From IMG/VR virus record IMGVR_UViG_3300033149_003773, positions 1 to 52,211 of that record: a stretch of 52,211 bases of DNA. One strand, written 5' to 3'. Under the pieces are notes generated by a model. It did no database searches, had not been told where the DNA came from, and was given only the letters and a program-made list of their open reading frames with translations. Both the position numbers and the translations under genes were made by a program. Numbering within the stretch: position 1 is the stretch's first letter; each line of letters opens with the position of its first letter. The DNA comes from a virus. Below are positions 12,052-24,205 of the stretch, piece by piece.

Positions 12052-13230
12052 TTACTTTTGCACTTCTCTCATTTCTTTTATATTACTCATCGTCCAAAAA
12101 CCTTCAAAATCTGAATTTCTCAAGCTCCTTAGAAAGTCCAAATATTTAGAATTTAAATCATCGTCAATATCAAAAATCTGTTTTTTAATCTCCACTGCAA
12201 CAGGTAAAATACCCAACGGGGGGACTGCATTACCTATCTGCATTCTTACCTTGTTACGAGAACCGAAAAATACGAAATCATCAGGAAATGTCTGTAACCT
12301 TGCTCTTTCACGGTTCGTTAAAGGTCTTGGTTCTTCATAATGGTATCCATGTGTTCCGCCTCCACCATTAGCGATAACTGTATAAGCTGGTTCGTTTCTA
12401 TCAAGTTTTCTGTAAATATTACTCATTACACCCTTAATCTTTAAATGTTCAGGAAGATGTTTAAAGTTTCCACCTTCGGGAATGGCTCTAAGCATTTTTT
12501 TTACCTTATCTGAAACCTTGGGTAATTCATTATTATGTGAAACGAGTCCTACTTCCTTGAAGTATATGGCTTTTCCAGTAAAAGCTTCACCAGAAGAAAC
12601 ATAATTACCCTTGAAATATATAGGCTCTGGAAACACAAATTTCTTGCCTAAATCGTTTCTAATACCAATTATCAAAACTCTTTCACGTGTCTGCGGTACA
12701 CCATAGTCAGCAAAATTAACTTTATGAATAGAAACCGTGTATCTGTTGTTGGGGCATGAAATACCCTCTTTGTACATGTATACAGCCTCTTCCACAAAAT
12801 CAAAACTGTAATCATCATTAGTAGCTTCTGCTGGATTGGATAAGTCGTTGACTATCAAAGCTATGGCTTTACCATCGTTTGCACTTAGTATTCCCTTCAC
12901 GTTCTCTGCTATAAAAACCTTCGGTTCCTTATGAGCTATTATCTTCACAAGTTCTTTGTACAACCGTCCACGCTTTACATGTATGCCCCACCTCTTACCC
13001 AACATTGAAAAGTCCTGACATGGAAAACCACCTATCACGATATCCGCATCTGGTATATTATCAACACTTATGCTTGAAATGTCCCCCTGTATAACTTCAT
13101 GCTCAAAATTGGATCGATACGTTAAACATGCTTCTTTGAAAATGTCGTTTGCAAAAACAATGTCGTATCCAACAGCATAAAAACCTAAATCCATGCCTCC
13201 TGCACCCGAAAACAAACTGATTATCCGCAT
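12052..13230 (-). CDS. DNA (cytosine-5-)-methyltransferase
   Basis: A 392-residue enzyme that transfers a methyl group from SAM to C5 of cytosine. Motif I is FSGAGGMDLGF (7-17), motif IV GGFPCQDFS with nucleophile Cys71, motif VI ENV (109-111), motif VIII QTRERVLIIG and motif X QIGNAVPP. The target recognition region lies around 230-310. No restriction endonuclease is seen beside it, so it is an orphan enzyme that may protect phage DNA or mark a site. ATG 13230 follows GGGGAGGTATTCA. It lies upstream of the late genes but has its own promoter candidate. Confidence 0.93.
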   Translation of the reverse strand: MRIISLFSGAGGMDLGFYAVGYDIVFANDIFKEACLTYRSNFEHEVIQGDISSISVDNIPDADIVIGGFPCQDFSMLGKRWGIHVKRGRLYKELVKIIAHKEPKVFIAENVKGILSANDGKAIALIVNDLSNPAEATNDDYSFDFVEEAVYMYKEGISCPNNRYTVSIHKVNFADYGVPQTRERVLIIGIRNDLGKKFVFPEPIYFKGNYVSSGEAFTGKAIYFKEVGLVSHNNELPKVSDKVKKMLRAIPEGGNFKHLPEHLKIKGVMSNIYRKLDRNEPAYTVIANGGGGTHGYHYEEPRPLTNRERARLQTFPDDFVFFGSRNKVRMQIGNAVPPLGILPVAVEIKKQIFDIDDDLNSKYLDFLRSLRNSDFEGFWTMSNIKEMREVQK

Positions 13231-13252
13231 TGAATACCTCCCCTCACATGTA

Positions 13253-13261
13253 AGTATAGCA
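13253..13261 (-). promoter_or_regulatory. Possible methyltransferase promoter, extended -10
   Basis: TGCTATACT on the minus strand fits an extended -10 and lies 23 bases before the ATG. A -35 is not clear. Confidence 0.35.
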
Positions 13262-13364
13262 CAATACGTGCAAGCATATATATAAGAATTTTCTGTTCCC
13301 GTAAAAAAGGGGATATTTTCTAAATTTCCCTTTTTCCCTATATGAATTATATGGGGTATATAAG

Positions 13365-13870
13365 CATGTAATAGCTAACAGCTAATAATAAAAATAATAA
13401 TAAAAATAATAATATAGCTAATAGCTAATAGCTGACAGCTAACAAGCAGATAGCTAGCAAGCTTGGAACGTGCAACGTGTAGCATGTAGCACGTAACACA
13501 TAGCACATAGCACGTAGCACATAAACATAAAGCATGTAATAATAGCTAAGAGCTAAAGCATAATATAGCATGCTATAAGCTTGAGATAAAGCATATTTTT
13601 TTATGCTATATAGCTATTAAGGCATAGCATGCTTTAGCTATATAGCACGCTTTAGTTATTATTATTATTATCACTATTATATAGCTGGCACGTATAGCTA
13701 TAAAGCACATAGCATGCTATAAGGACATAGCATGCTTTAGCTGTATAGCATGCTTTTGTATAGCATGCTTTTATTATTTATTATTTATATTATTATCTCA
13801 TAGCATGCTTTAGCTGACAGCTAACAGCTAACAGCTAACAGCTAACGAGCTGGCAAGCTTGCAAGCTCCT
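13365..13870. repeat. Palindrome-rich non-coding repeat region
   Basis: No gene fits between the methyltransferase and the first early gene (13231-13951). The stretch is built from short words: seven TAGCATGCT copies (starts 13566, 13625, 13710, 13728, 13746, 13761, 13801), many AGCTA/TAGCT units, a GCTAACA tandem near 13815-13846, TAATAATAA blocks, and AGCACGTAGCACATAG words. Many are palindromes (GCATGC, AGCT), so both strands can form many overlapping hairpins, for example AGCATA-T6-TATGCT near 13590. It separates divergent transcription units. An origin, partition or structural role is inference. Confidence 0.75.
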
Positions 13871-13951
13871 GGCATGTTTACATGGTTTTTACTTACTGAC
13901 AACGTTATGGCAATGTTAAAGGTATACCATTAGGTCAGGGAGGTGAAGAGT

Positions 13952-14248
13952 ATGAGCATTGAAAGGTTGAAAGAGGCTTTAAAGGTAACTGATTATCACG
14001 TGTTCCACTTTAGGGGTCATTGTGATCTTTGCAATGACGAAAAACCACATGTACCGCATGTAATTGATACGTACTCTCCAGGTAATCCTGAAAGCGATAA
14101 TGCATGGGAGTTTGAAAGGTATTGTTTAGGTAAAGAAGGATTCGTTCCAGGGTTGGGTTACATAAGAATCGCTATTTGGCATCATCAGCCTGGTGATCCT
14201 CACACTGCTGAAGTTCATTATGGTTACTGGTATATCGAGGAAAAATAG
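13952..14248 (+). CDS. Small protein with Cys-Cys and PHVPH motif (family D)
   Basis: A 98-residue protein, first gene of the early array. It has CDLC near residue 24-27 followed by PHVPHV, then YCLGKEG, and resembles the protein at 22768-23109 (PHVPHT, FCLGWEG). Cys and His spacing could bind a metal. I chose ATG 13952 after GGGAGGTG rather than the upstream GTG 13943. The stop codon lies in the left arm of a hairpin shared with other genes of the array. Function unknown. Confidence 0.7.
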   Translation: MSIERLKEALKVTDYHVFHFRGHCDLCNDEKPHVPHVIDTYSPGNPESDNAWEFERYCLGKEGFVPGLGYIRIAIWHHQPGDPHTAEVHYGYWYIEEK

Positions 14249-14270
14249 CGTGCCGCTATGGCGCGCTATT
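14244..14270 (+). terminator. Array hairpin H1
   Basis: AATAGCGTGCC and GGCGCGCTATT form an 11-bp stem with one G-T pair and the loop GCTAT. The left arm contains the TAG stop of the preceding gene. Only a weak T-run follows (ACTTTATT), so it may slow RNA decay or attenuate rather than stop transcription fully. Confidence 0.65.
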
Positions 14271-14290
14271 ACTTTATTGGAGGTGAAAGC

Positions 14291-14602
14291 ATGAAACTGA
14301 TTGATCTTTTAGAAAAAAAATACTACTTGGTGTTAGAAGGTCGTGAGGTTCCTTTACTTGCAAGTTTCTGTAACCCTATTGCAAGGTTTAACGATTTTAA
14401 AGACATAGACATAACACAGGATAATACTATAAAGCCGTCAGAAAAATATGTGGTGTGTGGTAACAAGAAACAGCTATACGTGTATAGTTTGGAACAAGAC
14501 GAGACAGCAAAGTATAAAGGTATCCTTGCATACAAGGACATGGGATTTGGAAAGTATCACGTGCTTGGGCGCGATGGCAAGTGGAAAGACTTGGTGATAT
14601 AG
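14291..14602 (+). CDS. Hypothetical small protein
   Basis: A 103-residue protein starting MKLIDLLEKKYYLVLEGREV. ATG 14291 follows GGAGGTGAAAGC. It is mixed alpha/beta with no membrane segment or known motif; two Cys and several Lys-Tyr pairs are present. Its stop codon overlaps hairpin H2. I do not recognise it. Its place in an array of small early genes suggests a host-takeover or anti-defence role, but nothing in the sequence shows this. Confidence 0.65.
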   Translation: MKLIDLLEKKYYLVLEGREVPLLASFCNPIARFNDFKDIDITQDNTIKPSEKYVVCGNKKQLYVYSLEQDETAKYKGILAYKDMGFGKYHVLGRDGKWKDLVI

Positions 14603-14630
14603 CGTGCCGCTATGGCGCGCTGTTTTTTTT
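14599..14630 (+). terminator. Array hairpin H2 with T-run
   Basis: The same stem and loop as H1 (ATAGCGTGCC, loop GCTAT, GGCGCGCT) followed by eight T. This is a good Rho-independent terminator, and the near identity to H1 after an unrelated gene shows the element is a repeat. Confidence 0.8.
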
Positions 14631-14684
14631 GTTTTGCTTGTTTTGTTTCTTTTGTCAATTTGAGAATGAAGGGAGTTGATAGGT

Positions 14685-15041
14685 ATGAAGTATGTTTTCA
14701 TGGACGGTGTGAAAGCGCTTGAAAAGCAGAATTATATTACTCATGAAAGGATCAAGAATTTTTTTGAGAATGAAGATGTTGAAAGGATCATTGGAGCGTT
14801 ACTGCGTTCGCGATGGGTTCTTCTTGATCGACAGGGTAAGCCCGCGGTCGAATACTGGGCTTTCCTTGTATATGATCCGCTTTCGAACAGGTTCATGGTG
14901 CTATCGCATGCACCAAATGACAAAGACAAGAATTATATCTACTTATATTCGCTCCCTCCAGTTTGTGATGTTAGTTTTGAAGATGTATATCGTGATCTTG
15001 AAAATGTTGTAGAAGATTATCCGAGCGTTACCATGGCATAG
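14685..15041 (+). CDS. Hypothetical small protein
   Basis: A 118-residue protein starting MKYVFMDGVKALEKQNYITH. ATG 14685 follows GGGAG within reach. Mixed alpha/beta with an acidic C-terminus (VSFEDVYRDLENVVEDY). Its leader holds one copy of the CAATTTGAGAATG spacer. No known motif. It lies between two array hairpins. Confidence 0.65.
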   Translation: MKYVFMDGVKALEKQNYITHERIKNFFENEDVERIIGALLRSRWVLLDRQGKPAVEYWAFLVYDPLSNRFMVLSHAPNDKDKNYIYLYSLPPVCDVSFEDVYRDLENVVEDYPSVTMA

Positions 15042-15042
15042 G

Positions 15043-15060
15043 GTGCACTGTTCCGTGCGC
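15043..15060 (+). terminator. Array hairpin H3
   Basis: GTGCAC and GTGCGC pair (6 bp, one G-T) around TGTTCC, followed by GCTGTTCTTTTA. It is a decayed form of the GCGTGC/GCGCGC stem family. Confidence 0.5.
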
Positions 15061-15103
15061 GCTGTTCTTTTATGTTTAACTCTTAGATAAGGGAGTGGTG
15101 AGC

Positions 15104-15379
15104 ATGGTTAAGGCTTTGGTTTACTCATATGGATACATAGGCACCGAGGACTTGAGATATTGCTTGTTCGCAGTGCTTGAGAATGTACTAAAAAACATGA
15201 GTGATAATGAGAAGATTAACAGGATAGGTTTTATAGGCAACGAATGGCGCTATCCGTTAACTGAGATTTTTTTTAATAGTTTCGTTATCAAAGATGATAG
15301 GATAATCGCATGTGATAACTTTAACCGAGTATGGGTAAAAGATAAGGATTCGTGCTGCTGGTTTCTAAAAACACTGTAA
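15104..15379 (+). CDS. Small protein, family B (paralogue at 22446)
   Basis: A 91-residue protein starting MVKALVYSYGYIG. It shares a line of residues with the gene at 22446-22751: VKALxY, a hydrophobic CLFAVLENVL-type helix, EWRYPLTEI, DDRIIACD, RVWVK and a final aromatic WF. ATG 15104 follows GGGAGTGGTG. Only four bases separate its stop from the next leader, so it is cotranscribed with the next gene. Function unknown. Confidence 0.65.
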   Translation: MVKALVYSYGYIGTEDLRYCLFAVLENVLKNMSDNEKINRIGFIGNEWRYPLTEIFFNSFVIKDDRIIACDNFNRVWVKDKDSCCWFLKTL

Positions 15380-15392
15380 GGGAGTGGTAAGA

Positions 15393-15692
15393 ATGGGTTA
15401 CAAAGTGAGTAACTATCCGTTGGAAAATTTTCCTTACTTGGACGTTGCAAGCTGTAAGCGTTTTGTTCATGCTCACAGGAACGTGTTTGCACGTTCTACC
15501 AGGCGTTATGTGGTTTCTACTCTTCCAACAGCAATAAAAGAAGTGAGTACAAGTCCCGATGGAAACAAAGCATATTGGCTTTGGGTTTTTAGAAGAGGTT
15601 ACTATAGCGTTATACAGTTCGACTCAAAACCGTCAAGAAACGAGATTACAAGAGCGATCAATGAGTCGTACACTGAAGAGTTTAATGATTGA
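15393..15692 (+). CDS. Small protein, family A member 1
   Basis: A 99-residue protein of a four-member family in this window (others at 15836, 16192, 20757). Shared features in order: SCKRFVHAHRN, a central IKEVSTSP, YWLWVF, then YYSVIQF and PSRNEITRAI. The pattern is beta strands followed by a C-terminal helix. ATG 15393 follows GGGAGTGG. No catalytic motif is seen. The stop lies at the edge of hairpin H4. Confidence 0.65.
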   Translation: MGYKVSNYPLENFPYLDVASCKRFVHAHRNVFARSTRRYVVSTLPTAIKEVSTSPDGNKAYWLWVFRRGYYSVIQFDSKPSRNEITRAINESYTEEFND

Positions 15693-15717
15693 CAGTGCGC
15701 TGTAACGGGCGCGCTGT
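15692..15717 (+). terminator. Array hairpin H4
   Basis: ACAGTGCGC pairs with GCGCGCTGT (9 bp, one G-T), loop TGTAACGG, then TCCTTTTG. Same family as H1 and H2. Confidence 0.6.
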
Positions 15718-15751
15718 TCCTTTTGTGGTTTTGTAGTGGTGAATCCGAGTT

Positions 15752-15820
15752 CTTGAGAATTTGAGAAACTGAGAATTCATCAATTCGAGAACTCGAGAAG
15801 TTGAGAATTTGAGAATTTGA
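15752..15820 (+). repeat. TTGAGAATT spacer repeat
   Basis: About nine imperfect copies of a TTGAGAA/TCGAGAA unit in an A/T-rich spacer between hairpin H4 and the Shine-Dalgarno of the next gene. Confidence 0.8.
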
Positions 15821-15835
15821 AAGGGGGTGCGTGAA

Positions 15836-16189
15836 ATGAAATTAAAAGAAGTTTATTATCATGATGACGGTTTCCTGTATTTAGAGGGTGAAAGTTACAC
15901 GGTTCATGTTCATAGGTTGCCGTCAAGTTTTTGTGTCAGTGTTGGGAGTTGTAGAGATTTTGTTTATAGACATCGTAACATTTTTGATAGTTTAACACTT
16001 GTTCATTTGGTATCAAAAAAACCTATAGCGTTTTATGAGGTTGGCATCTCACCATGTGGAACGCATAAAAATTTTTGGATATGGGTTTTTGATAGTGGTA
16101 TCTATTATGTAGTAAAGTTTCATGGTAAACCTTCAAAAAATGAAATTATTGAGGCTGTGAATTTAGTAAAATTTGAAAGGGGGCGGTAA
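15836..16189 (+). CDS. Small protein, family A member 2
   Basis: A 117-residue protein with an extra N-terminal strand region (about 35 residues) before the shared SCRDFVYRHRN. It then has YEVGISP, FWIWVF, YYVVKFH and PSKNEIIEAV as in member 1. ATG 15836 follows GGGGGTG with a six-base spacer, whereas the upstream GTG is itself within the Shine-Dalgarno. It is followed by member 3 with two bases between stop and start. Function unknown. Confidence 0.65.
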   Translation: MKLKEVYYHDDGFLYLEGESYTVHVHRLPSSFCVSVGSCRDFVYRHRNIFDSLTLVHLVSKKPIAFYEVGISPCGTHKNFWIWVFDSGIYYVVKFHGKPSKNEIIEAVNLVKFERGR

Positions 16190-16191
16190 AG

Positions 16192-16533
16192 GTGAGTTAT
16201 AAGGCTAAACATTATTTACTTGATAAAGAATTTCCATATAAGAATTATTTTAGCTGTGAACGTTTTGTGTTAGACAACACAATTCATAGAGGTGCATCAC
16301 GTTGTTTCATCGCATTAACTAACCCTGTTGTCTTGAAAGAGGCGTTCATTTCACCTATAAGGGAAAAGTTGGAGGGACATTCTGGGAGGTTTTGGATGTT
16401 TGAAAAGGGCTGTGTTACAGTTATCGAGTTTGATAGTGATCCTTCATGGGATGAGTTAATGAGTGCTCTATATTATGAATCGTTGGATGCTTTCGATCAT
16501 GAGAAGTTAACACTCAGTGGCGTGCTGATATAG
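16192..16533 (+). CDS. Small protein, family A member 3 (diverged)
   Basis: A 113-residue protein starting at GTG 16192 after GGGGGCGG. The family signature is weaker but in order: SCERFVLDN, VVLKEAFISP, RFWMFEKG, VTVIEF and PSWDELMSAL. It lies directly behind member 2, so a tandem duplication is likely. The C-terminus ends LSGVLI at hairpin H5. Confidence 0.6.
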   Translation: MSYKAKHYLLDKEFPYKNYFSCERFVLDNTIHRGASRCFIALTNPVVLKEAFISPIREKLEGHSGRFWMFEKGCVTVIEFDSDPSWDELMSALYYESLDAFDHEKLTLSGVLI

Positions 16534-16546
16534 CACGCTGTTTTTT
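16520..16546 (+). terminator. Array hairpin H5 with T-run
   Basis: GCGTGCT and AGCACGC form a perfect 7-bp stem, loop GATAT, followed by TG and six T. The left arm lies in the last codons of the preceding gene. Confidence 0.7.
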
Positions 16547-16560
16547 GTTGTTTCATGACT

Positions 16561-16633
16561 TTATCAATTTGAGAAGTTGAGAATTTATCAATTCGAGAAT
16601 CTGAGAAGTCGAGAATTTATTAATTTGAGAATG
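16561..16633 (+). repeat. TTGAGAATT spacer repeat
   Basis: Repeats of ATCAATTTGAGAAGTTGAGAA and its variants fill the space between hairpin H5 and the next Shine-Dalgarno. A reading frame happens to run through them but a better start lies downstream. Confidence 0.8.
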
Positions 16634-16648
16634 AAAGGGGTTGAGAAT

Positions 16649-16951
16649 ATGAAAAGAAAACTCAAGGATAAGATCATAAAAGTTGAATCGATTAAAAAGT
16701 TTAATGTTTACACAGATTTAGGTATATCGGATCCTGGGGATCTTAAGTATCTTGAGAATGTTGAGATATACGATACATGGGATCAGTTGAAGCAATCTTT
16801 TGCTGATTTTGTTCAACGAATTTATGGCTTGTCGGATTTCGTCATGAAATACTTCGATATGGATTCGTATCTATACGACGGTATATTGGAACATGATTTT
16901 GAGATATATTATCTTGAATTTACTTGTCAATATGTTATTATTTATCAATAA
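16649..16951 (+). CDS. Hypothetical small protein
   Basis: A 100-residue protein starting MKRKLKDKIIKVESIKKFNV: a basic N-terminus, then acidic and aromatic residues (LENVEIYDTWDQLKQSF, FDMDSYLYDG, DFEIYYLEF). ATG 16649 follows AAAGGGG; an ATG at 16577 lies inside the spacer repeat and has no Shine-Dalgarno. No family recognised. Confidence 0.6.
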   Translation: MKRKLKDKIIKVESIKKFNVYTDLGISDPGDLKYLENVEIYDTWDQLKQSFADFVQRIYGLSDFVMKYFDMDSYLYDGILEHDFEIYYLEFTCQYVIIYQ

Positions 16952-16976
16952 TTTTTTGAAAGGGGGGCGGTAAGCA

Positions 16977-17240
16977 ATGGGAAAGATTACCAGAGAGAGC
17001 GAGAAAAAAATTAATATGGTTAAGCTGGAACTTGAGAATCTTAGCAACGTTCAGAGTGAGAACTTGAGAACTTTGACTAATGTTATTTCAAAACTGGAGT
17101 CAAGAGATGAAAACGAGCTTGAGAAAATGATTATTAAGAGCTGTTTAGAACTTGAGAATTTAAGGGATATTCACGAGATCATTTTGAAAAAGCTTAATAA
17201 CGTTGTTCTAAAATTACAAAGCATGATAAAGGAGTGGTAG
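16977..17240 (+). CDS. Coiled-coil small protein containing spacer-repeat units
   Basis: An 87-residue, almost wholly helical protein with heptad-like Leu/Asn spacing. Its codons include four units of the same TTGAGAA word found in the intergenic spacers, read as Leu-Glu-Asn-Leu (LELENLSN, SENLRTL, ENELEKM, LELENLRD). ATG 16977 follows AGGGGGGCGG. It may have arisen from, or seeded, the spacer repeat. It overlaps the leader of the next gene. Function unknown. Confidence 0.55.
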   Translation: MGKITRESEKKINMVKLELENLSNVQSENLRTLTNVISKLESRDENELEKMIIKSCLELENLRDIHEIILKKLNNVVLKLQSMIKEW

Positions 17241-17242
17241 AG

Positions 17243-17731
17243 ATGTTTGAGAAAATTTCATCGTTAGATTATATAACATTTTATAAATGCAATGAAGGAG
17301 TAAGGTTAAAAGATTTTCAATTGTATATAAAAAGTAATGAGCCAGGCACGTTGCGTTTGCCGTGTCCTGGTGAGATGGAATTTGATGCCATTAATAAACA
17401 ATTGTTTTTTATACCTGATTTTAATTCAAAGAAAAAGCTTGTCATACTACAAGTAATTGGTTTTGATTTTTTCATTGACATTACCAGTGCTGTTAATGCA
17501 AATGTATACAGCATATTTGATGAAAAAATGATTAGAAAAATAGACGCTTGGGGTGGAAAAAATGTTAAACACTTGTATGCTTTTATATGTGATAGCAATA
17601 TTGTGTATTTTGAGACTGTGGAAACTGTGAAAAATAAGGAAATTGTTAATGGTTGGATTATCGGGGTGTTTGGCTTTAATGAGGTTCAGTTATTTAAAAT
17701 ACCTCGTATTTTAGAAAAAAGGGAGGAGTGA
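17243..17731 (+). CDS. Hypothetical protein
   Basis: A 162-residue protein starting MFEKISSLDYITFYKCNEGV, mostly beta strand by pattern (LVILQVIGFDFFIDIT, HLYAFICDSNIVYFETVE, GWIIGVFGFNEVQLF). No signal peptide or known motif. ATG 17243 follows GGAGTGGTAG. Its stop is six bases before the next ATG and overlaps that gene's Shine-Dalgarno GGGAGGAG, so the pair is coupled. Confidence 0.6.
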   Translation: MFEKISSLDYITFYKCNEGVRLKDFQLYIKSNEPGTLRLPCPGEMEFDAINKQLFFIPDFNSKKKLVILQVIGFDFFIDITSAVNANVYSIFDEKMIRKIDAWGGKNVKHLYAFICDSNIVYFETVETVKNKEIVNGWIIGVFGFNEVQLFKIPRILEKREE

Positions 17732-17737
17732 GTGAAA

Positions 17738-18205
17738 ATGGGTAAAAGTATTATTAAAAAGGAAGGGTTTTATTATGACATTTTGGATTCAAGGCTTGCC
17801 GTTACTTTGCCGAGGAATAATAGAACGTACGGGGTACCAAGGGACATTACTGAGATCGAGGAAATTAAAAGTTTTCTTGTTAATTTTACTAAGAAACTGG
17901 TTGAGAAAAAAGAAAAACCGATGGTTATCGTACGGGTTGAGGATAAGGATAATACTAAAACAATCAACAGGGTATCATTTAGAATACTTTTAGTTGATTA
18001 TGAGATAATCATTAAAAACGTCTATTGTGGCGGTGTTTGGGGCATGGATAGGATTTTTTCAGTGCTTTACAACTTCGAGGATCTTCTTAGTCGCATTACA
18101 TTTGGAGATTATAATAGTTTTGATCATTATTCTGATTACAGTCTAAGCAATAATTATAAGTTACTTAGTGATATGTTTTATTATATTAAATATGAAGAAG
18201 ATTAG
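17738..18205 (+). CDS. Hypothetical protein
   Basis: A 155-residue protein starting MGKSIIKKEGFYYDILDSRL. It has beta strands (MVIVRVEDKDN, VSFRILLVDYEIIIKNVYC) and a Tyr/Asp/Asn-rich C-terminal part. ATG 17738 follows GGGAGGAG. No family recognised. Hairpin H6 lies about 20 bases after its stop. Confidence 0.6.
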   Translation: MGKSIIKKEGFYYDILDSRLAVTLPRNNRTYGVPRDITEIEEIKSFLVNFTKKLVEKKEKPMVIVRVEDKDNTKTINRVSFRILLVDYEIIIKNVYCGGVWGMDRIFSVLYNFEDLLSRITFGDYNSFDHYSDYSLSNNYKLLSDMFYYIKYEED

Positions 18206-18225
18206 TAGTAAATGGGAGATCTCTT

Positions 18226-18250
18226 AAGGCATGCTATCATGGCATGCCTT
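18226..18250 (+). terminator. Array hairpin H6
   Basis: AAGGCATGC pairs perfectly with GCATGCCTT (9 bp) around TATCATG. No T-run follows. The core GCATGC word is the same palindrome repeated in the 13.5-13.8 kb region. Confidence 0.55.
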
Positions 18251-18265
18251 CGTTGTGAAACATAT

Positions 18266-18294
18266 AAATTTGAGAATTTAAGAATTTGAGAATG
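18266..18294 (+). repeat. TTGAGAATT spacer repeat
   Basis: AAATTTGAGAATTTAAGAATTTGAGAA-type sequence (two to three units) between hairpin H6 and a GGGAGGG Shine-Dalgarno. Confidence 0.7.
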
Positions 18295-18306
18295 GGAGGG
18301 CTGATT

Positions 18307-18555
18307 ATGACTAAGTCTATAAACGAAGAATTTGAGGAATGGTTGCAAAGTAAAAATACTAAAATAGCTGATAGGTGTCTTGAGAAACTCAATGAGGATA
18401 TTCTGGATTTGTGGGAAGATGAAGATACCAGATATGTTGAAATATCTGAGGTGTCAAGTCATAAACCTATACCAAATTATTTGTTTCACCAAGTGCTGAG
18501 GTTTATAAAAGCAACGAATAGGTGGAGTGTATTCGATGGTATTTTGAAACATTAG
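18307..18555 (+). CDS. Hypothetical small acidic protein
   Basis: An 82-residue acidic protein starting MTKSINEEFEEWLQSKN. It is helical, with a Trp/Asp/Glu-rich middle (LDLWEDEDTRYVEISEV). Acidic small phage proteins often mimic DNA or bind host factors, but no motif shows that here. ATG 18307 follows GGGAGGGCTGATT. It is the last plus-strand gene before a bidirectional terminator. Confidence 0.6.
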   Translation: MTKSINEEFEEWLQSKNTKIADRCLEKLNEDILDLWEDEDTRYVEISEVSSHKPIPNYLFHQVLRFIKATNRWSVFDGILKH

Positions 18556-18581
18556 GACTTTTTGAAATTTGAGAATTTAAG

Positions 18582-18616
18582 AAAAAAAGAGCCCGACTGA
18601 TGTCGGGTTCTTTTTT
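18582..18616. terminator. Bidirectional Rho-independent terminator
   Basis: AAAAAAAGAGCCCGAC, loop TGAT, GTCGGGTTCTTTTTT: a GC-rich stem flanked by A-run and T-run, so it works on both strands. It separates the plus-strand array from the two convergent minus-strand genes. Confidence 0.85.
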
Positions 18617-18630
18617 ATGCTTTATATATT

Positions 18631-18891
18631 TTATTCTGGAAGGTGGACATATAGCTGTTTATAGTTGTTTCTGCTTCGATAAATGCCATAATAAGTCCTT
18701 AAAGTGTTTCTCATGGAACGGTGCATGACGTTAATGAGGCTTTTTCGCTGGTTGATAGTTTTACGTCTCGACTCGAGGATCAAAAGGAAAAACTCGTTTA
18801 TAATGTCCTCTCGTTCTTTGTTGAGAATTGCCCTGATCCCCTTTGGGTATCTTGTCAAAGCAGTATAGAATAATTGTTCAACCTTTGTCAT
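18631..18891 (-). CDS. Possible sigma factor region 2-like small protein
   Basis: An 86-residue basic protein. EREDIINEFFLLILES followed by a basic stretch and INVMHRSMRNTLRTYYG resembles the order in ECF sigma region 2 (the EDLxQExFL helix, then the WLxxIARNxxxDxxR helix that melts the -10). Region 4 is absent, so it would be a partial factor or an anti-host decoy. It overlaps the upstream gene by ATGA and is one of few minus-strand genes inside the early region. The sigma reading is inference from pattern only. Confidence 0.45.
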   Translation of the reverse strand: MTKVEQLFYTALTRYPKGIRAILNKEREDIINEFFLLILESRRKTINQRKSLINVMHRSMRNTLRTYYGIYRSRNNYKQLYVHLPE

Positions 18892-19199
18892 TTATTTACC
18901 CCCTTCCATTTGTAACTGCCTGAGATTTTGTTGATGAGCCAGCGGTTGCCTTCGTCGTCGCGTGCTTCGATCCAACAACTGTTTGAAGAGTCTTTAATTT
19001 CTTCAATGATTACAATGTCGTCTGGAACAGAATCTTTGCTAATACCGCACTTTTCTGCCCCAGAAAACATAGTCTTGTACATGATTGCGATTGTAAATTC
19101 TTCGTCGGTAGCACCAAAGCGTTCTAAGTCTCTTATTAAAACACCGCTACGTTCACCGCTACGCTTGTTCTTGAATGTCATCATCCTGAACCTTTCCAT
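18888..19199 (-). CDS. Hypothetical small protein, partner of the region 2-like gene
   Basis: A 103-residue protein starting MERFRMMTFKNKRSGERSG. ATG 19199 follows GGGAGTG; an upstream ATG at 19217 lacks a good Shine-Dalgarno. The C-terminal half (CWIEARDDEGNRWLINKISG) has beta strands and weakly recalls the end of the protein at 22185-22442 (CAWDKYGCAWGISNL). It is translationally coupled to the next gene. Function unknown. Confidence 0.55.
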   Translation of the reverse strand: MERFRMMTFKNKRSGERSGVLIRDLERFGATDEEFTIAIMYKTMFSGAEKCGISKDSVPDDIVIIEEIKDSSNSCWIEARDDEGNRWLINKISGSYKWKGVNK

Positions 19200-19310
19200 G
19201 CTTTCACTCCCTTTCATGTGTTGTGTAATTTATTGTCTCATATATATATAACATTACCATTGAGGCGATGTAACGACTTGTTTGGATATGATTACATAAA
19301 GATGAATCAC

Positions 19311-19337
19311 TATGTTACAGACTCCCATATAAGTGGA
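19311..19337 (+). promoter_or_regulatory. Conserved leader motif, copy 1
   Basis: TATGTTACAGACTCCC followed by six variable bases and AGTGGAG. The same motif lies at 23227-23254. CTCC and GGAG can pair, which would hide a Shine-Dalgarno. Here it lies 100 bases before the ATG at 19436, with TTGAGAA repeats in between. Confidence 0.55.
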
Positions 19338-19372
19338 GAGGAAAAGAGATGAGAAAGTTGGAAAAGAGGAAT

Positions 19373-19420
19373 ATTGAGAATTGGGAAAGTTTGAGAATTC
19401 GAGAAATTCGAGAATTTAGG
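19373..19420 (+). repeat. TTGAGAATT spacer repeat
   Basis: Units ATTGAGAATTGGG, TTTGAGAATTCGAGAA and TTCGAGAATTTAGG between the conserved leader motif and the next Shine-Dalgarno. Confidence 0.75.
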
Positions 19421-19435
19421 AGAGGAGTGATATTG

Positions 19436-19804
19436 ATGGAAGGCAAGGACAGGATAGTTATAGTTGATGTAACGTACGGGTTTTGCGAAGAGAGGCAAGA
19501 GTTCCGTGCTCTACTCAAAGCCTATATTTCTGAGGAAGACGGACTTTTGCCTGAGATATTTAGAGACAAAAGTGAGGACTTTTGGGGTAGTGCATTGACT
19601 TCAACCTGGGGCTGGAGTTCGGAGGAAAGAGATGGATATCGTTATAATCATAAGGAGTTGTATCATCCTGATCTTGAGTTGTTGAGAGATCAAGTAAAAG
19701 ATTATATTAACGATGAGATTGAGCACTTGAGAGAGGTTGTCCATGCCAATGTTTTGGCACATGCTGAGATTCCAGAGCCAGAGCACTATGAGTTTGTGAT
19801 ATAG
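19436..19804 (+). CDS. Small protein, EHYEFVI family member 1
   Basis: A 122-residue protein, first of three tandem paralogues. Shared parts: an N-terminal strand RIVIVDVTYGF, an ALLKAYI strand, TWGW near the middle, YHPDLELLRDQVKDYINDEI and the C-terminus EPEHYEFVI. The C-terminal helix is amphipathic. ATG 19436 follows GGAGAGGAG. Hairpin H8 overlaps the stop. Function unknown. Confidence 0.7.
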   Translation: MEGKDRIVIVDVTYGFCEERQEFRALLKAYISEEDGLLPEIFRDKSEDFWGSALTSTWGWSSEERDGYRYNHKELYHPDLELLRDQVKDYINDEIEHLREVVHANVLAHAEIPEPEHYEFVI

Positions 19805-19824
19805 CGTGCAGAAATGCGCGCTAT
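19801..19824 (+). terminator. Array hairpin H8
   Basis: ATAGCGTGCA pairs with TGCGCGCTAT (10 bp, one G-T), loop GAAA, a stable tetraloop. The TAG stop codon of the preceding gene is part of the left arm. Same family as H1 and H2; T-run weak. Confidence 0.65.
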
Positions 19825-19844
19825 TACTTGAGGAGGTGCTAACA

Positions 19845-20249
19845 ATGTGTGAGCAAAAAATATTTATAGATGTGGAATATCTTTACATTCCCCGCATTCC
19901 ATATTGTGAAAAAGGAGAGTATAGAGCAACAATTTGGGCGTACATTCCAGAGGCGACAGACGTTTTCGTAAATGGTGTAACACGTCCCATATCTAAACGA
20001 TACCAGAACTCTCATATTGCGTTTTTCACTGAACCCTTGCGTCCTACTTGGGGATGGCGATCTGACGGGTATCGCAACGGCTATCGCTATCAGTACATGA
20101 AAATGTATGAACCTGATCTACAAACGTTGCAACAACGAGTCAAGGAATATATTGATAAAGAGATTGAGAAATTACGAAAAGTGGTTGAACAGAATGTTCT
20201 GGCTGCTCACAAAGTTCCAGAGTCAGAGCATTATGAGTTCGTAATATAG
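19845..20249 (+). CDS. Small protein, EHYEFVI family member 2
   Basis: A 134-residue protein starting MCEQKIFIDVEYLYI. It keeps the family order with an insert near residues 38-60 (DVFVNGVTRPISKRYQNS), then PTWGWRSDGYRNGYRYQ, DLQTLQQRVKEYIDKEI and SEHYEFVI. ATG 19845 follows GGAGGTG. The Gly/Arg/Tyr-rich middle is shared with member 1 (RDGYRYNHK). Function unknown. Confidence 0.7.
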   Translation: MCEQKIFIDVEYLYIPRIPYCEKGEYRATIWAYIPEATDVFVNGVTRPISKRYQNSHIAFFTEPLRPTWGWRSDGYRNGYRYQYMKMYEPDLQTLQQRVKEYIDKEIEKLRKVVEQNVLAAHKVPESEHYEFVI

Positions 20250-20267
20250 AGGGTGTAAATGCCCGCT
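20248..20267 (+). terminator. Array hairpin H9 (decayed)
   Basis: AGAGGG and CCCGCT pair except for one mismatch around TGTAAATG. It holds the place of the H8 hairpin after the paralogous gene and appears to be a drifted copy. Confidence 0.45.
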
Positions 20268-20296
20268 GTTACCTTATTCAGAAAGGAGATGTTAAT

Positions 20297-20665
20297 ATGG
20301 CGTGTGAACAGAGGGTAGTTTTAGTTGATGTGTCTTACCAATTCAGAGCAAGAGAGCGCAGATATGAGGCTATGATTAAGTTTTATATCCCCACTGAGGG
20401 TGAGTATCTTCCAGACATATTTATAGACGAAGATACGGATTTTGCAGGTCGACTTCTCACCTATGAGTGGGGAAAGAGAGCTACAGATCGGGAAGGGTAT
20501 TTAGTTGAGTCGTTGCGTGTCTATGGCAACGACCCAGACGAAGTTAGACAGAATGCTAAGGAAAGAATTGAGAAGGAGATCACACGCCTGCGACAGGTAG
20601 TTGAACACAATATTCTGGCTTCTGTCAGAATCCCAGAACCAGAGCACTACGAGTTCGTTATATAA
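20297..20665 (+). CDS. Small protein, EHYEFVI family member 3
   Basis: A 122-residue protein starting MACEQRVVLVDVSYQF. It keeps the YEAMIKFYIP strand, EWGKR in the TWGW position, EVRQNAKERIEKEITRLRQVVEHNILA and EPEHYEFVI. ATG 20297 follows GAAAGGAGAT. The strict conservation of the last seven residues in all three copies, while the middles differ, suggests the C-terminus contacts a partner. Confidence 0.7.
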   Translation: MACEQRVVLVDVSYQFRARERRYEAMIKFYIPTEGEYLPDIFIDEDTDFAGRLLTYEWGKRATDREGYLVESLRVYGNDPDEVRQNAKERIEKEITRLRQVVEHNILASVRIPEPEHYEFVI

Positions 20666-20670
20666 AAATG

Positions 20671-20688
20671 GGGCTCTAAGAGCCCTGT
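20671..20688 (+). terminator. Array hairpin H10
   Basis: GGGCTC, loop TAA, GAGCCC: a perfect 6-bp stem preceded by an A-run and followed by TGTTCTTG. Sequence differs from the H1/H2 family but the position after the gene is the same. Confidence 0.6.
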
Positions 20689-20710
20689 TCTTGCTTGGAG
20701 ATAAGAAGGA

Positions 20711-20740
20711 TTGAGAAATTTGAGAATTTGAGAAAATCGA
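20711..20740 (+). repeat. TTGAGAATT spacer repeat
   Basis: Three TTGAGAA units between hairpin H10 and the GGGGG Shine-Dalgarno at 20745-20749. Confidence 0.75.
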
Positions 20741-20756
20741 GTAAGGGGGTGTTAAG

Positions 20757-21098
20757 ATAAGAAAAGAAGCATTTGATGATCTCTTATTTGTACGGTCAAA
20801 AGAATATGATATTGATACATTCTTCTTACCAGATTCAGTTAATCCATTAGACGCTGTGTCTTGCAGAAATTATGTGCGTGAACACAAAAATGTGTTGAAG
20901 GGTACTCAAGAGTTATACATTAGTCCGATATATCCGACTTTGATTGTAGAGATAGGTGTTTCTCCAGATACCCACCAACGTTCTTATTGGCTTTGGGTTT
21001 TTAGGGAATATAAATATTCCATAATTAGATTTAAGAAAAGTCCATCATATGATGTAGTACAGAGTGCTATAAAGGAAATCAGAGAATTTGAGAAATAA
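20757..21098 (+). CDS. Small protein, family A member 4, probable ATA start
   Basis: A 113-residue frame with the family A line: SCRNYVREHKN, IVEIGVSP, YWLWVF, YSIIRF, SYDVVQSAI. The only ATG/GTG choice giving the family core is GTG 20856, which has no Shine-Dalgarno and would remove about 33 N-terminal residues. Upstream, the frame is open back to ATA 20757, seven bases after GGGGG; the canonical start is missing because ATG appears as ATA. Either ATA is used or the gene is weakened. The next feature, the tmRNA, begins six bases after its stop. Confidence 0.6.
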   Translation: MRKEAFDDLLFVRSKEYDIDTFFLPDSVNPLDAVSCRNYVREHKNVLKGTQELYISPIYPTLIVEIGVSPDTHQRSYWLWVFREYKYSIIRFKKSPSYDVVQSAIKEIREFEK

Positions 21099-21104
21099 TG
21101 TTAT

Positions 21105-21457
21105 GGGGGCGATCGGTTTCGACGGGTTTGAGCTCCCTCAGGAAGCGAGCCGAGTTTTCACCTACTCGTAAAACAGGGTGAGGCACAAACAAGTGCCAAC
21201 AAAGAACCAGTCGCTGCTTGACGAGAAGAGCAGCCGTCCTTACTGAGTTTGATCGGGGCTCAGTATAGGGCGTAAGATCACCGATCGGGCATCCAAGGTT
21301 TTGCCTTTTCGGCTTTGGATGACATGTTAGAAAAGGCTAAGGTGAATATAACCTGTCCGTGGGTTGTTTCACCTGACATTTAAAACACGGACTGCGCTCG
21401 GAGATGCCTGAGGGTACTCACTCTCGGACGGGGGTTCGATTCCCCCCGCCTCCACCA
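21105..21457 (+). ncRNA. ssrA: Transfer-messenger RNA (tmRNA)
   Basis: A 353-base complete tmRNA. The 5' end GGGGGCG pairs with CGCCTCC before ACCA (one G-T pair), and the CCA is encoded. The T-arm reads GGGGGTTCGATTCCCCC, and the D-loop region GGTTTCGACGGG is typical. The tag frame starts at GCC 21195 and reads ANKEPVAA, with TGA at 21219-21221. It rescues stalled ribosomes by adding the tag for proteolysis. By memory, tag and core sequence are close to those of Thermotoga. It is whole, not a 3' fragment left by integration. Confidence 0.95.
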
Positions 21458-21738
21458 GATAAAGCTTTCACAAGGATTGTAATACTACTTGAGTGTCTCG
21501 AGGATTGCCGTAGAGACATTGAGAAGCCCCACGGGATACTTACTACCCTTAAAACGTTTTGAGCTCGCTATGACGATCCTCGCTTTACTGAGAACGATTT
21601 TGAGAAACTGGGAGCTTGAGAATTTGAGAATTTATCAATTTGAGAATTTGGAAAGGAGTGGCGAGAAAGGAGGGAGAAGAAAGTGGATAGGTATTATTGC
21701 ATTTGCCGAGCGTGTGTTCCGAATGTAGGTGGAGGTGA
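21458..21738 (+). other. Non-coding stretch after the tmRNA
   Basis: About 280 bases with no convincing gene; a 79-codon frame here lacks a Shine-Dalgarno and runs through spacer repeats. CGAGGAT near 21500 can pair with ATCCTCG near 21575, and GTCTC with GAGAC inside it, so it may fold. TTGAGAATT repeats occupy about 21600-21650. I see no T-rich terminator for the tmRNA. Confidence 0.4.
21600..21650 (+). repeat. TTGAGAATT spacer repeat
   Basis: TTGAGAAACTGGGAGCTTGAG and AATTTGAGAATTTATCAATT-type units, matching the spacer at 16561-16633 closely (ATCAATTTGAGAA core). Confidence 0.75.
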
Positions 21739-21744
21739 ATGGTT

Positions 21745-21963
21745 ATGTGGATACAAAGTAAAAAGGTGATATTTAATACGAACAATGTGGATTACTACTT
21801 TATATCTTGTTGTGCTGCGAAAAGTGTGGATGGTAAAGATATATATGATGTGTGCATGCACTCCGAGGGGCACGATATAGTTATTTGTAGTTTTGAAAAT
21901 GAAAATGATGCCAAACGTTTTTTAAATAGGATAGCGGATAAATTGAGGGCTTTAAGTTTGTAA
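21745..21963 (+). CDS. Hypothetical small protein
   Basis: A 72-residue protein starting MWIQSKKVIFNTNNVDYYF. It has two adjacent Cys (SCCAAKS) and further Cys and His (DVCMHSEGHD), then a C-terminal helix (NDAKRFLNRIADKLRAL). ATG 21745 lies at a better distance from GGAGGTG than ATG 21739. Metal binding is possible but unproven. Confidence 0.55.
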   Translation: MWIQSKKVIFNTNNVDYYFISCCAAKSVDGKDIYDVCMHSEGHDIVICSFENENDAKRFLNRIADKLRALSL

Positions 21964-21982
21964 GACGAGGAGGGAAAGAGGA

Positions 21983-22198
21983 ATGAAACTTTTTAGAGTT
22001 ATATATAGAAGCGGGACCAAAAGGCATAGAAACGTTGTTGAGGTTATTGCCAGAGATAAAGAACATGCACGCAATAAGATATTATCACGTCATGCGAGTG
22101 AAGCGAAAAGAGGGCTCGAGATTGTGTCTATTGAGCCTATTCGAGATGTCTCGTTGCCAGAACAAGGAAAAAGGAAGGATAAAGATGAGCACAGATAA
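21983..22198 (+). CDS. Hypothetical small basic protein
   Basis: A 71-residue, strongly basic protein starting MKLFRVIYRSGTKRHRN. One strand-helix unit (NVVEVIARDKEHARNKIL) recalls small nucleic-acid-binding folds, followed by a charged, probably disordered tail. ATG 21983 follows GAGGAGGGAAAGAGGA. It overlaps the next gene by 14 bases. Confidence 0.55.
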   Translation: MKLFRVIYRSGTKRHRNVVEVIARDKEHARNKILSRHASEAKRGLEIVSIEPIRDVSLPEQGKRKDKDEHR

Positions 22199-22442
22199 AT
22201 ATTTAGTTGTACTTAAGATTTCACATCTAAATAAAGATATTTTCTTTGGTATTGATAGAAGTCTATTTGAAGAGAATGAAAGTAATTATACTCCAGTTGA
22301 AATAGTTAGATTAGTTAAGATCGTTAAGTCTAACATGGTAACCTGTGCATGGGATAAGTACGGTTGTGCATGGGGGATTTCAAATCTAAATGATGATCAT
22401 ATTTGGGAACGCATGCCAAAATATGATAGGGAGGAGTGGTAA
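22185..22442 (+). CDS. Hypothetical small protein
   Basis: An 85-residue protein starting MSTDKYLVVLKISHLNKD. ATG 22185 follows AAGGAAGG; a longer frame upstream lies wholly within the previous gene. The C-terminal half (VTCAWDKYGCAWGISNL, IWERM) has a Trp/Cys repeat and weakly resembles the minus-strand protein at 18888-19199. Its stop is three bases before the next ATG. Confidence 0.55.
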   Translation: MSTDKYLVVLKISHLNKDIFFGIDRSLFEENESNYTPVEIVRLVKIVKSNMVTCAWDKYGCAWGISNLNDDHIWERMPKYDREEW

Positions 22443-22445
22443 ACT

Positions 22446-22751
22446 ATGAAACATTCAAGAACACCTGTTAAGGCTTTGCTGTATATTATTGATGTTGTAT
22501 ATACTGAAAATGATGATGATTTCATTGTTTGTTATTATGCTGTGATAAAAAATGTGATAGAACATTTAAACGAAAAAGCAAAAAGAAATTTATTACGTGC
22601 TGAATGGAAAGCCCCAATAGCTGAAATTGAGTTTGTTGATTTTCAGGTTTATGATGATTGTATACTTGCTTGCGATAGCCGTGATCGCCTCTGGCTAAAA
22701 AGAAAAGGTTCACTCTGGTGGTTTTCAATGAGCAACGAATTCGTTTATTAA
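22446..22751 (+). CDS. Small protein, family B (paralogue of 15104)
   Basis: A 101-residue protein starting MKHSRTPVKALLYIIDVVY. It shares VKALLY, CYYAVIKNVI, AEWKAPIAEI, DDCILACD, RLWLK and WWF with the gene at 15104-15379. The longer C-terminus (SMSNEFVY) is unique. ATG 22446 follows GGGAGGAGTGG. Function unknown. Confidence 0.65.
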   Translation: MKHSRTPVKALLYIIDVVYTENDDDFIVCYYAVIKNVIEHLNEKAKRNLLRAEWKAPIAEIEFVDFQVYDDCILACDSRDRLWLKRKGSLWWFSMSNEFVY

Positions 22752-22767
22752 AGGAGAGTGAGTTTAG

Positions 22768-23109
22768 ATGAAGGAGCTAAAAAAGTTTGTTATAAATAAT
22801 ATTTTTAGAAACTTAGACAAATCCTTTCCTCAAGAAGAGGAGCTCATAATCAAAAAATTTTCCTTCAAAGGCAAGAAAGTTGCTTGTGAAAAAGATTATC
22901 CTCATGTTCCTCACACTGTAAAGATGTATACAACTGTTAATGGGGATACCCTTGAGGAATTCTGTCTTGGCTGGGAAGGTAAAACTCTCGATAATACTCT
23001 ATTGGTAATATGGATTCAGGAATTTCTTCCACCAGATGAGAGCTTTAATTATGAACGGGTTCAAGGGTATTACATCATGCTTCCACTTCATTCGGTGATA
23101 CCTTCTTAA
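22768..23109 (+). CDS. Small protein, family D (paralogue of 13952)
   Basis: A 113-residue protein starting MKELKKFVINNIFRNLDKSF. It shares PHVPHT, EEFCLGWEG and a following VIWI strand with the gene at 13952-14248. The Cys pair of that paralogue is reduced to one Cys (KVACEKDYPHVPH), which argues against a strict zinc site. ATG 22768 follows AAGGAGAGTGAG. It is the last gene of the array before a promoter-like region. Confidence 0.65.
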   Translation: MKELKKFVINNIFRNLDKSFPQEEELIIKKFSFKGKKVACEKDYPHVPHTVKMYTTVNGDTLEEFCLGWEGKTLDNTLLVIWIQEFLPPDESFNYERVQGYYIMLPLHSVIPS

Positions 23110-23200
23110 TCAGAACAAGAGGAGGTGAATTAAAGAAGAAGCCGAAAAGCACTTTTAACAGAAAATACCAATTTTCCTTCCGTATACGGGTGGTATATAG

Positions 23201-23206
23201 TATAAT
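23201..23206 (+). promoter_or_regulatory. Possible promoter -10 box
   Basis: TATAAT within AGTATAATTATATATGTATCCC. A weak TTCCGT lies 17 bases upstream as -35. A similar GTATAATTATATAT word lies at 32604-32617. It would drive the genes from 23263 on. Confidence 0.4.
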
Positions 23207-23226
23207 TATATATGTATCCCAAAAGA

Positions 23227-23254
23227 TATGTTACAGACTCCCTTGTAAGTGGAG
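23227..23254 (+). promoter_or_regulatory. Conserved leader motif, copy 2
   Basis: TATGTTACAGACTCCC then TTGTA and AGTGGAG, as at 19311-19337. Here the GGAGG is the Shine-Dalgarno of the next gene, nine bases before its ATG, and CTCC can pair with it. A translational switch is possible. Confidence 0.55.
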
Positions 23255-23262
23255 GTGATTAA

Positions 23263-23976
23263 ATGGGGAAAGGCAGGAAAAAGAAAATCACAAAGAAAGA
23301 GGAAAGTACTGTACAAGGTAAGATACTTACACCCGATCTTGAACGATTGCTACGGTCTTATATAGTTGTGCAAAGACAAAGGCTATCGGCAGAGCTAAGG
23401 ACACTTTCACTTGGTGGTGATGAAATTCTCGATAGGATGTTAGACATGGTCAAGCATGTGGAAAAGGAACTGGCAAAACAGATTCAGAAAAAGATAGAAA
23501 ACACAGAGTTGTATCATAACTTTTTTGCTCGAGTTAAAGGTGTGGGAACATCAACAGCAGCGAAGATAATCTTCTATGTAAAAGACATTGAACGTTTTCC
23601 TACGGTGTCGAAGCTGTGGCGTTATGCAGGGTATGGCGTTACAAACGGAAAAGCGGACACTTTGAGAAAAGGTGAAAAGTTGTGTTACAATCCACGATTC
23701 AAAGGCATGCTGTATTACACGGGTATACTGCTTATTAGCAAATCTAAGAAATATCGTGCATACTACGAAAAAGCGAAGGAGTATTACCGTATCAATAGAC
23801 CACAATGGAATAAGATGCACATATTTAGGGCGGCATTAAGAAAAACCATTAAGCTATTCTTATCACACCTATGGGAAGTTTGGCGAAAAATCGAGGGGTT
23901 ACCAGTTAGAAAGCCTTATGCGATAGAATACTGCGGGCATACCACGGTTTATAAGCCAGAAGATTTCTTTGATTAA
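23263..23976 (+). CDS. IS110-type C-terminal (Tnp_20) domain protein, stand-alone
   Basis: A 237-residue basic protein. After a helical segment it has a helix-hairpin-helix FARVKGVGTSTAAKIIFYV and FPTVSKLWRYAGYG, the pattern of the IS116/IS110/IS902 C-terminal domain, then a long helical part (HIFRAALRKTIKLFLSHLW) and a C-terminal YAIEYCGHTTVYKP. The N-terminal DEDD RuvC-like domain of full IS110 enzymes is absent, and the usual active serine is not evident. I recall similar stand-alone proteins in many phages, labelled transposase. A DNA-structure binding role is more likely than transposition. Confidence 0.7.
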   Translation: MGKGRKKKITKKEESTVQGKILTPDLERLLRSYIVVQRQRLSAELRTLSLGGDEILDRMLDMVKHVEKELAKQIQKKIENTELYHNFFARVKGVGTSTAAKIIFYVKDIERFPTVSKLWRYAGYGVTNGKADTLRKGEKLCYNPRFKGMLYYTGILLISKSKKYRAYYEKAKEYYRINRPQWNKMHIFRAALRKTIKLFLSHLWEVWRKIEGLPVRKPYAIEYCGHTTVYKPEDFFD

Positions 23977-23988
23977 CCTTTCCCGATT

Positions 23989-24205
23989 ATGTGAACCTGC
24001 ATGTAATGAGACCCACGCAGAGATGTGAGCCTAAATACAATGATGTCCATCTGTACATAGCGAACCAGTATTCAATGTTTTCCATTTGAAAGTGTGAACC
24101 ATTTCTTTATGTGTGACCCAAAATTTTGTGTGAACCATCATATTGTGTGAGCCGATTTCTTGTGTGAACCATTCCTTTGTGTGACCCAATTCTCTTGTGT
24201 GTCTT
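23989..24205 (+). repeat. Iteron-like array, 13 units of about 17 bp
   Basis: Core GTGTGA[ACG]CC starts at 23989, 24006, 24023, 24040, 24058, 24075, 24092, 24111, 24128, 24145, 24162, 24179 and 24197, so the spacing is 17 with four exceptions (18, 19, 18 and a truncated last unit). Units from 24092 on are near-perfect; earlier ones are degenerate. The period is not a multiple of three and no plus-strand gene covers it. Such arrays bind initiator or repressor proteins; it lies at the head of the replication module. Confidence 0.8.

Follow-up and report, generated by a model that had tools for sequence, protein, structure and literature searches.

The DNA analyzed here, referred to as the window, is IMG/VR virus record IMGVR_UViG_3300033149_003773 (52,211 bases, positions 1 to 52,211), and the element under study is an array of small genes between positions 13952 and 23109 (Table 1). 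Gene calling from the list of open reading frames (ORFs) yielded 21 sense-strand genes over this interval, or 22 when the tas-like gene at its right edge (g22) is counted, along with two minus-strand genes and one transfer-messenger RNA (tmRNA) gene. The array combines gene duplication, an enrichment of hairpins at stop codons, and 8-nucleotide (nt) spacers on the sense strand, and relatives of this phage have gained or lost blocks of genes beside such spacers. In the initial annotation, the region was described as a row of unrelated small genes, each forming a cassette with a shared hairpin, a spacer, and a strong Shine-Dalgarno sequence; our analysis bears out the repeated hairpins and spacers of that description but not the unrelated genes, the strong Shine-Dalgarno sequences, or the one-gene cassettes.

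Table 1. Features of the array and its surroundings in window coordinates (aa, amino acids; hairpin energies in kcal/mol).
Feature	Position	Strand	Remarks
Noncoding AT-rich region upstream of g1	13340..13870	.	repeated AGCTAATAGC and TAGCATGC words, 8 TAGCRYGC
g1	13952..14248	+	98 aa, paralog of g21, stop in hairpin
H1	14244..14270	+	-17.1, spans TAG of g1
g2	14291..14602	+	103 aa, singleton
H2	14599..14623	+	-16.2, spans TAG of g2, then 7 T, terminator-like
g3	14685..15041	+	118 aa, singleton
H3	15035..15068	+	-14.7, spans TAG of g3
g4	15104..15379	+	91 aa, paralog of g20
g5	15393..15692	+	99 aa, family B
H5	15691..15718	+	-18.1, begins in TGA of g5
Spacer upstream of g6	15753..15823	+	YYGAGAAN
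g6	15836..16189	+	117 aa, family B
g7	16192..16533	+	113 aa, GTG start, family B
H7	16519..16539	+	-12.3, 5' arm in last codons, stop in 3' arm, then GTTTTTT
Spacer upstream of g8	16562..16648	+	YYGAGAAN
g8-g11	16649..18205	+	four-gene unit, no internal hairpins
Hairpin after g11	18226..18250	+	AAGGCATGCTATCATGGCATGCCTT
g12	18307..18555	+	82 aa
Hairpin between g12 and m1/m2	18583..18616	.	strong, terminator-like
m1 and m2	18631-19217	-	minus-strand genes
Leader module	19312..19338	+	ATGTTACAGACTCCCATATAAGTGGAG, before family C genes
g13, g14, g15	19436..20665	+	tandem family C paralogs, 36-43% identical
H13	19801..19824	+	-14.8, spans TAG of g13
H14	20246..20269	+	-8.1, spans TAG of g14
H15	20667..20689	+	-12.7, after TAA of g15, different sequence
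g16	20757..21098	+	113 aa, apparent ATA start, family B
tmRNA gene	21105..21457	+	complete, tag ANKEPVAA
Spacer upstream of g17	21588..21648	+	YYGAGAAN
g17-g21	21739..23109	+	compact unit; g20 paralog of g4, g21 paralog of g1
Leader module	23228-23254	+	second window copy
tas-like gene g22	23263..23976	+	TIGR-Tas, no nuclease domain
TIGR array	23990..24197	+	TGTGAACC-type 8-nt repeats, mostly 9-nt spacers
Sak4-like protein	25805-26656		sequence match
PD-(D/E)XK exonuclease	30540-31547		sequence match

Four paralog families (g1/g21, g4/g20, g5/g6/g7/g16, and g13/g14/g15, at 26-44% identity) take in 11 of the 21 genes, so duplication accounts for a large part of the region. Instead of one cassette per gene, we find several units of 2-5 genes (g4-g5, g6-g7, g8-g11, and g17-g21) whose internal gaps of ≤25 nt hold neither hairpin nor spacer. 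Family scans covered 10 of the 21 genes with Pfam, 17 with PHROGs (the remaining four being paralogs of scanned genes), and five with NCBIfam; the tas-like edge gene apart, none of the scanned array proteins rose above a curated Pfam or NCBIfam cut-off, and the best PHROG match, that of g17 (E = 0.001), was to a family without known function. Because the scanned proteins lack a curated family match, a role for array genes in host takeover is only a guess. Alignment searches of IMG/VR gave no confirmed match for families B and C, nor did the genome contig collection give one for family C. AlphaFold models reached a pLDDT of 75.5 for family C and 69.1 for family B, and the family C model had no fold match in the PDB or BFVD at E ≤ 0.001.

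Hairpins are concentrated at the ends of array genes. With a threshold of below -7 kcal/mol, strong hairpins were observed at 9 of 22 array gene ends (g22 counted), vs 4 of the 58 non-array genes that served as the comparison set (Fisher p = 7e-4), and terminator-like sites across 13200-24300 numbered 15, compared to 5.6 ± 2.6 in shuffles. Stop-codon hairpins of -8 to -18 kcal/mol are found at g1, g2, g3, g5, g7, g13, g14, and g15; as had been noted for several genes, the stop codon can lie in the stem, entirely so in six cases and partly in g5, with that of g15 falling just outside, and the ninth match, at g21, probably reflects chance pairing with a Shine-Dalgarno sequence. The proposal that these hairpins form one sequence family also stands for seven of them, all of which have the 3' arm GCNCGCTRTT when aligned. 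H1 and H2 have a 22-nt core in common, an exact match to which was not found in IMG/VR, and the hairpins of the unrelated genes g1, g2, and g13 are nearly alike. H13 matches TAGCGTGCN6GCGCGCTRTT with zero mismatches (expected 0.00 in shuffles), a pattern that in its ungapped form misses H1 and H2, which have one extra base between the arms. A TAG stop is used by 6 of 9 hairpin genes vs 12 of 71 others (p = 0.003), as would be expected if the hairpin word supplies its own stop codon. Since g1 and g2, whose proteins are not similar, end in almost the same hairpin, while the tandem paralogs g13-g15 end in differing ones, a hairpin does not simply move along with its gene. TAGCRYGC itself occurs 13 times in the window against 1.46 expected under a first-order model, with eight of these occurrences, which the initial annotation had overlooked, in the noncoding DNA upstream of g1 (13566-13801).

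The spacer is likewise real, being an 8-nt tandem repeat of roughly YYGAGAAN. The word YYGAGAA occurs 31 times in the 15 intergenic pieces of the array (mean 1.46, maximum 5 in 300 dinucleotide shuffles) and not once on the minus strand within the array, with 18 of 22 spacings being multiples of 8, and another 14 copies fall within the coding sequences of the array. Spacers are present in five of the nine intergenic gaps that hold a hairpin, as well as after the tmRNA and before g13, and six of the 21 array genes have YYGAGAA in noncoding DNA within 70 nt upstream. An exact spacer 16-mer has a single occurrence in 103 genomes of the Thermotogota, the phylum to which a Thermotoga sp. genome belongs, so the spacer is a feature of the phage, and a search of IMG/VR for the spacer plus GGAGG returned only contig G002, described below. 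In g16, an ATA codon stands at the expected start position behind a strong Shine-Dalgarno sequence, and the last codons are built of the spacer repeat (GAGAATTTGAGAAATAA).

Strong Shine-Dalgarno pairing, by contrast, does not emerge as an array trait, with a median of -12.9 kcal/mol vs -11.5 kcal/mol elsewhere (p = 0.066; 40 non-array genes chosen for an ATG start, the tas-like gene among them). We also found no support for viewing the spacer as a ribosome pad of unusually low structure (z from -1.5 to 1.0). Nor do promoters support separate expression of the genes, another early suggestion: sigma-70-like sites were not in excess (43 vs 35.5 ± 6.2 in shuffles), though promoters of other types are possible.

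To follow gene turnover we turned to related phages. Searches with the terminase and DnaB found G002, L003, L005, L008, and L009. G002 (contig 3300022552_000011, 49,361 bases; its locus is labeled L006) is collinear with the window, and positions 51492 and 587, which by coordinate arithmetic lie 1,306 bases apart across the ends of the window, are 1,210 bases apart in G002; as the two ends are thus adjacent inside G002, the genome is circularly permuted and the window near complete. L008 and L009 come from one metagenome and are 99.86% identical over their overlap. The accessory regions of the relatives are broken off at contig ends, leaving the stretch beside the tas-like gene as the comparable part.

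Within that stretch, L006 and L009 share 91% identity over the tas-like gene and the TIGR array that follows it. Upstream lies a 42-nt spacer that is 97.6% identical between the two, followed in L006 by 1,610 nt containing two genes and in L009 by only 12 nt, after which both continue with the leader module ATGTTACAAGTGTAAAT..ATGGAG; each of the two genes inserted in L006 has YYGAGAATAGGAGG just upstream. L006 also lacks 444 nt, most of a 162-aa gene of L009, and this gap begins right after CTTGAGAAAT. In all, two of the four breakpoints adjoin the spacer word, one adjoins the leader module, and one falls inside an ORF. YYGAGAA lies ≤70 nt upstream of all four accessory genes of the relatives, while five of six core genes checked have none and the sixth a single copy. 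The expectation set beforehand, that relatives would differ in cassette content with breakpoints in hairpins or spacers, is thus borne out in part: accessory content differs, with a two-gene block at a spacer and a one-gene deletion starting from a spacer word, but the breakpoints are not at hairpins. The anticipated sharing of the hairpin family with the relatives was not seen. TAGCRYGC is missing from five of six accessory loci, its one match (L006 17018) lying elsewhere, and the reverse word GCRYGCTA matches only outside these loci (L003 1306, L004 1415, L006 17020). L009 encodes a distant family C homolog (26-33% identical) that sits behind the leader module, as in the window, and is followed by a stop-codon hairpin of unrelated sequence (740-764).

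The leader module has six copies, two in the window and the others at L006 1653, L008 224, and L009 214 and 852, just before genes or operons. It may contain a mini-ORF, reading ATG TTA CAG ACT CCC, then ATA or TTG, then TAA in the window and ATG TTA CAA GTG TAA in relatives. A pattern search for the module returned only contigs already known. At the other side of the array, positions 1-300 of both L003 and L004 hold repeats that resemble the AGCTAATAGC-like region at 13340-13870 in different words, at the corresponding assembly ends. A C5-cytosine DNA methylase gene occupies 12052-13230 of the window; upstream of the pre-terminase gene, the DNA of L003 and L004 leads directly into the repeat region, and the methylase is apparently another accessory difference.

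Taking these data together, we interpret the array, at a probability of roughly 0.6, as a phage accessory (hyperplastic) region between repeat-rich intergenic DNA and a conserved tas-replication block, shaped by duplication and by homology-assisted insertion and deletion, with terminator-like gene ends. Growth would proceed by tandem duplication and divergence, giving the four paralog families, together with gain and loss of blocks of one or two genes. The spacers may serve as brief stretches of common sequence for annealing recombination by the phage itself, through the Sak4-like protein and PD-(D/E)XK exonuclease, whose activities are predicted; a dedicated cassette recombinase would not be involved. 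As putative intrinsic terminators or 3'-end stabilizers, the hairpins would close units, with full termination predicted for H2 and H7 alone, behind which a T run stands, and partial termination for the others, and the leader module may mark the start of some operons. Several observations weigh against this interpretation. At 26-44% identity among paralogs, recent duplication is not seen; only two lineages beyond the window have a partly sequenced array, with the accessory ends cut off; of the four breakpoints, one is within an ORF and another at the leader module, neither at a spacer; T tracts are weak at H1, H13, H14, and H15; and assembly errors are possible in metagenome contigs.

The flanks could instead be purely regulatory, which we consider possible though on balance unlikely: hairpins would act as terminators or RNA stabilizers, the 8-nt repeats would bind a regulator or aid translation in the manner of the mycobacteriophage SAS repeats discussed below, and turnover would be ordinary and independent of the flanks. 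Sense-strand spacers placed before the Shine-Dalgarno sequence, T runs after H2 and H7, and the retention of spacers in relatives with different genes behind them all fit such a role, which does not account for a spacer word adjoining two of four breakpoints and would sit uneasily with spacers that are not unusually unstructured and Shine-Dalgarno sequences of ordinary strength. A further, doubtful possibility is that YYGAGAAN tracts are maintained as landing sequences at the 5' edge of acquired units. Sak4-type annealing would pair the tracts of one phage with those of another, allowing exchange of entire genes with no need for a site-specific recombinase, and the shared stop-codon hairpin word would seal the 3' edge; given at least three units in a row, the 8-nt period would supply TGA stops in all three frames within 24 nt. 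That the repeats are functionless products of neutral slippage is very improbable, for even though different word families (AGCTAATAGC/TAGCRYGC and YYGAGAAN) fill the noncoding DNA of this phage, the 8-nt word is retained in relatives with terminase proteins 80-81% identical and keeps a strict sense orientation and a position ahead of the Shine-Dalgarno sequence.

Integron cassette arrays also have a hairpin (attC) at the ends of small genes. Least probable of all is a dedicated integron-like system here, in which the hairpin would be the recombination site of a tyrosine or serine recombinase: hairpins do end small genes in the array, with near-identical copies behind the unrelated g1, g2, and g13, but the window has no integron-type tyrosine recombinase and no match to PF00589 or PF00239 (controls matched in 14/14 and 10/14 genomes), the hairpins are not framed by the attC boxes RYYYAAC/GTTRRRY (GTTRRRY lies within 25 nt of 0 of 8 and RYYYAAC near one), and the breakpoints in relatives lie away from hairpins.

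In a limited search of the open-licence literature we did not find this array described, but it works in part like two known systems. T4-type phages carry mobile regulatory cassettes known as promoter early stem-loops (PeSLs; Arbiol 2010 and Comeau 2014, as cited in PMC4503421), which resemble the array in placing stem-loops between small genes (early genes in T4) of a densely shuffled region, with repeated flanks around changing genes. The array differs in that no early promoter is joined to each stem-loop, as judged from sigma-70-like sites, in that breakpoints were observed at an 8-nt repeat spacer rather than the stem-loop, and in belonging to a different phage group. The SAS/ESAS repeats of cluster K mycobacteriophages (PMC3203893) are short repeats of one orientation just upstream of the starts of non-structural genes of several families, and nearly absent from host genomes, as the array spacer is from the Thermotogota set. 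SAS is a single 13-bp box (GGGATAGGAGCCC) over the Shine-Dalgarno sequence, unlike the variable-copy tandem 8-nt repeat of the array, and the box had 0 matches allowing up to 2 mismatches. Because the defining promoter of PeSLs and the SAS box are absent, we assign the array to neither system. The ORFanage of cyanophage S-PM2 (PMC4503421) is likewise an uninterrupted run of orphan ORFs within a genome that is conserved elsewhere, but it is lost as a single block and has a low PeSL density.

Beyond the array, the window encodes a terminase, a Mu-like portal, a tape measure protein, a DnaB-type primase-helicase, a Sak4-like annealing protein, and a PD-(D/E)XK exonuclease. The host is probably a heat-loving Thermotogota bacterium, because the phage tmRNA resembles Thermotogota tmRNAs, an argument based on a single, possibly acquired gene. 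Full-length identity to the three best of the 103 Thermotogota genomes is 82%, 77%, and 73%, and these genomes have the tag ANEELALAA or ANNELALAA in place of the phage ANKEPVAA, the end of the tag being altered by an in-frame 3-nt deletion plus substitutions. The phage tmRNA may rescue ribosomes while marking their products differently for proteolysis. In the same genomes, the terminase had only four remote matches (25-29% identity) and no provirus relative was found; a megablast search with the array matched none of 50,697 phage records.

The tas-like gene bounds the array on the right in the window, G002, L008, and L009. It matches NCBIfam NF052498 (E 1.4e-42, 146 bits, cut-off 100), and a profile built from three relatives hit a solved TasH chain (1.5e-16) as well as 9mty_A (6.1e-39). 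Transposase families in Pfam and PHROGs match it as well; a plain IS110 transposase identity was rejected, the NCBIfam match being to TIGR-Tas. In the adjacent TIGR array, exact repeats number 9 over 221 nt, against a mean of 0.25 and a maximum of 2 in shuffles; most steps are of 17 nt, with TG...CC(A), and the dual repeats are TGTGAACC/TGTGACCC. TIGR-Tas arrays are described (PMC12045711) as having dual repeats of 8-12 nt, 9-nt spacers, and a UG...CCA motif. Such arrays are processed into 36-nt tigRNAs. With a Nop-domain Tas protein (NF052498) next to a dual-repeat array, 23263-24197 is, on sequence grounds, a TIGR-Tas system of the TasA kind without a nuclease domain. Such pairs are also present at L006 1800-3060, L009 1439-2680, and, in a more distant phage, L052 9380-10615, where the array has 18-nt steps; at L053 repeats alternate 16 and 20 nt apart, in a count within the shuffle maximum, and at L051 there is no exact repeat.

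In conclusion, the array appears to be a new instance of a mode of accessory-gene reshuffling already known in phages. It provides a concrete case, in hardly sampled phages of deep-branching thermophiles, of how short shared flanks could allow small genes to be gained and lost repeatedly, and with a tmRNA inside the accessory region and a TIGR-Tas system beside it, it also offers a place to study the role of both in a phage.

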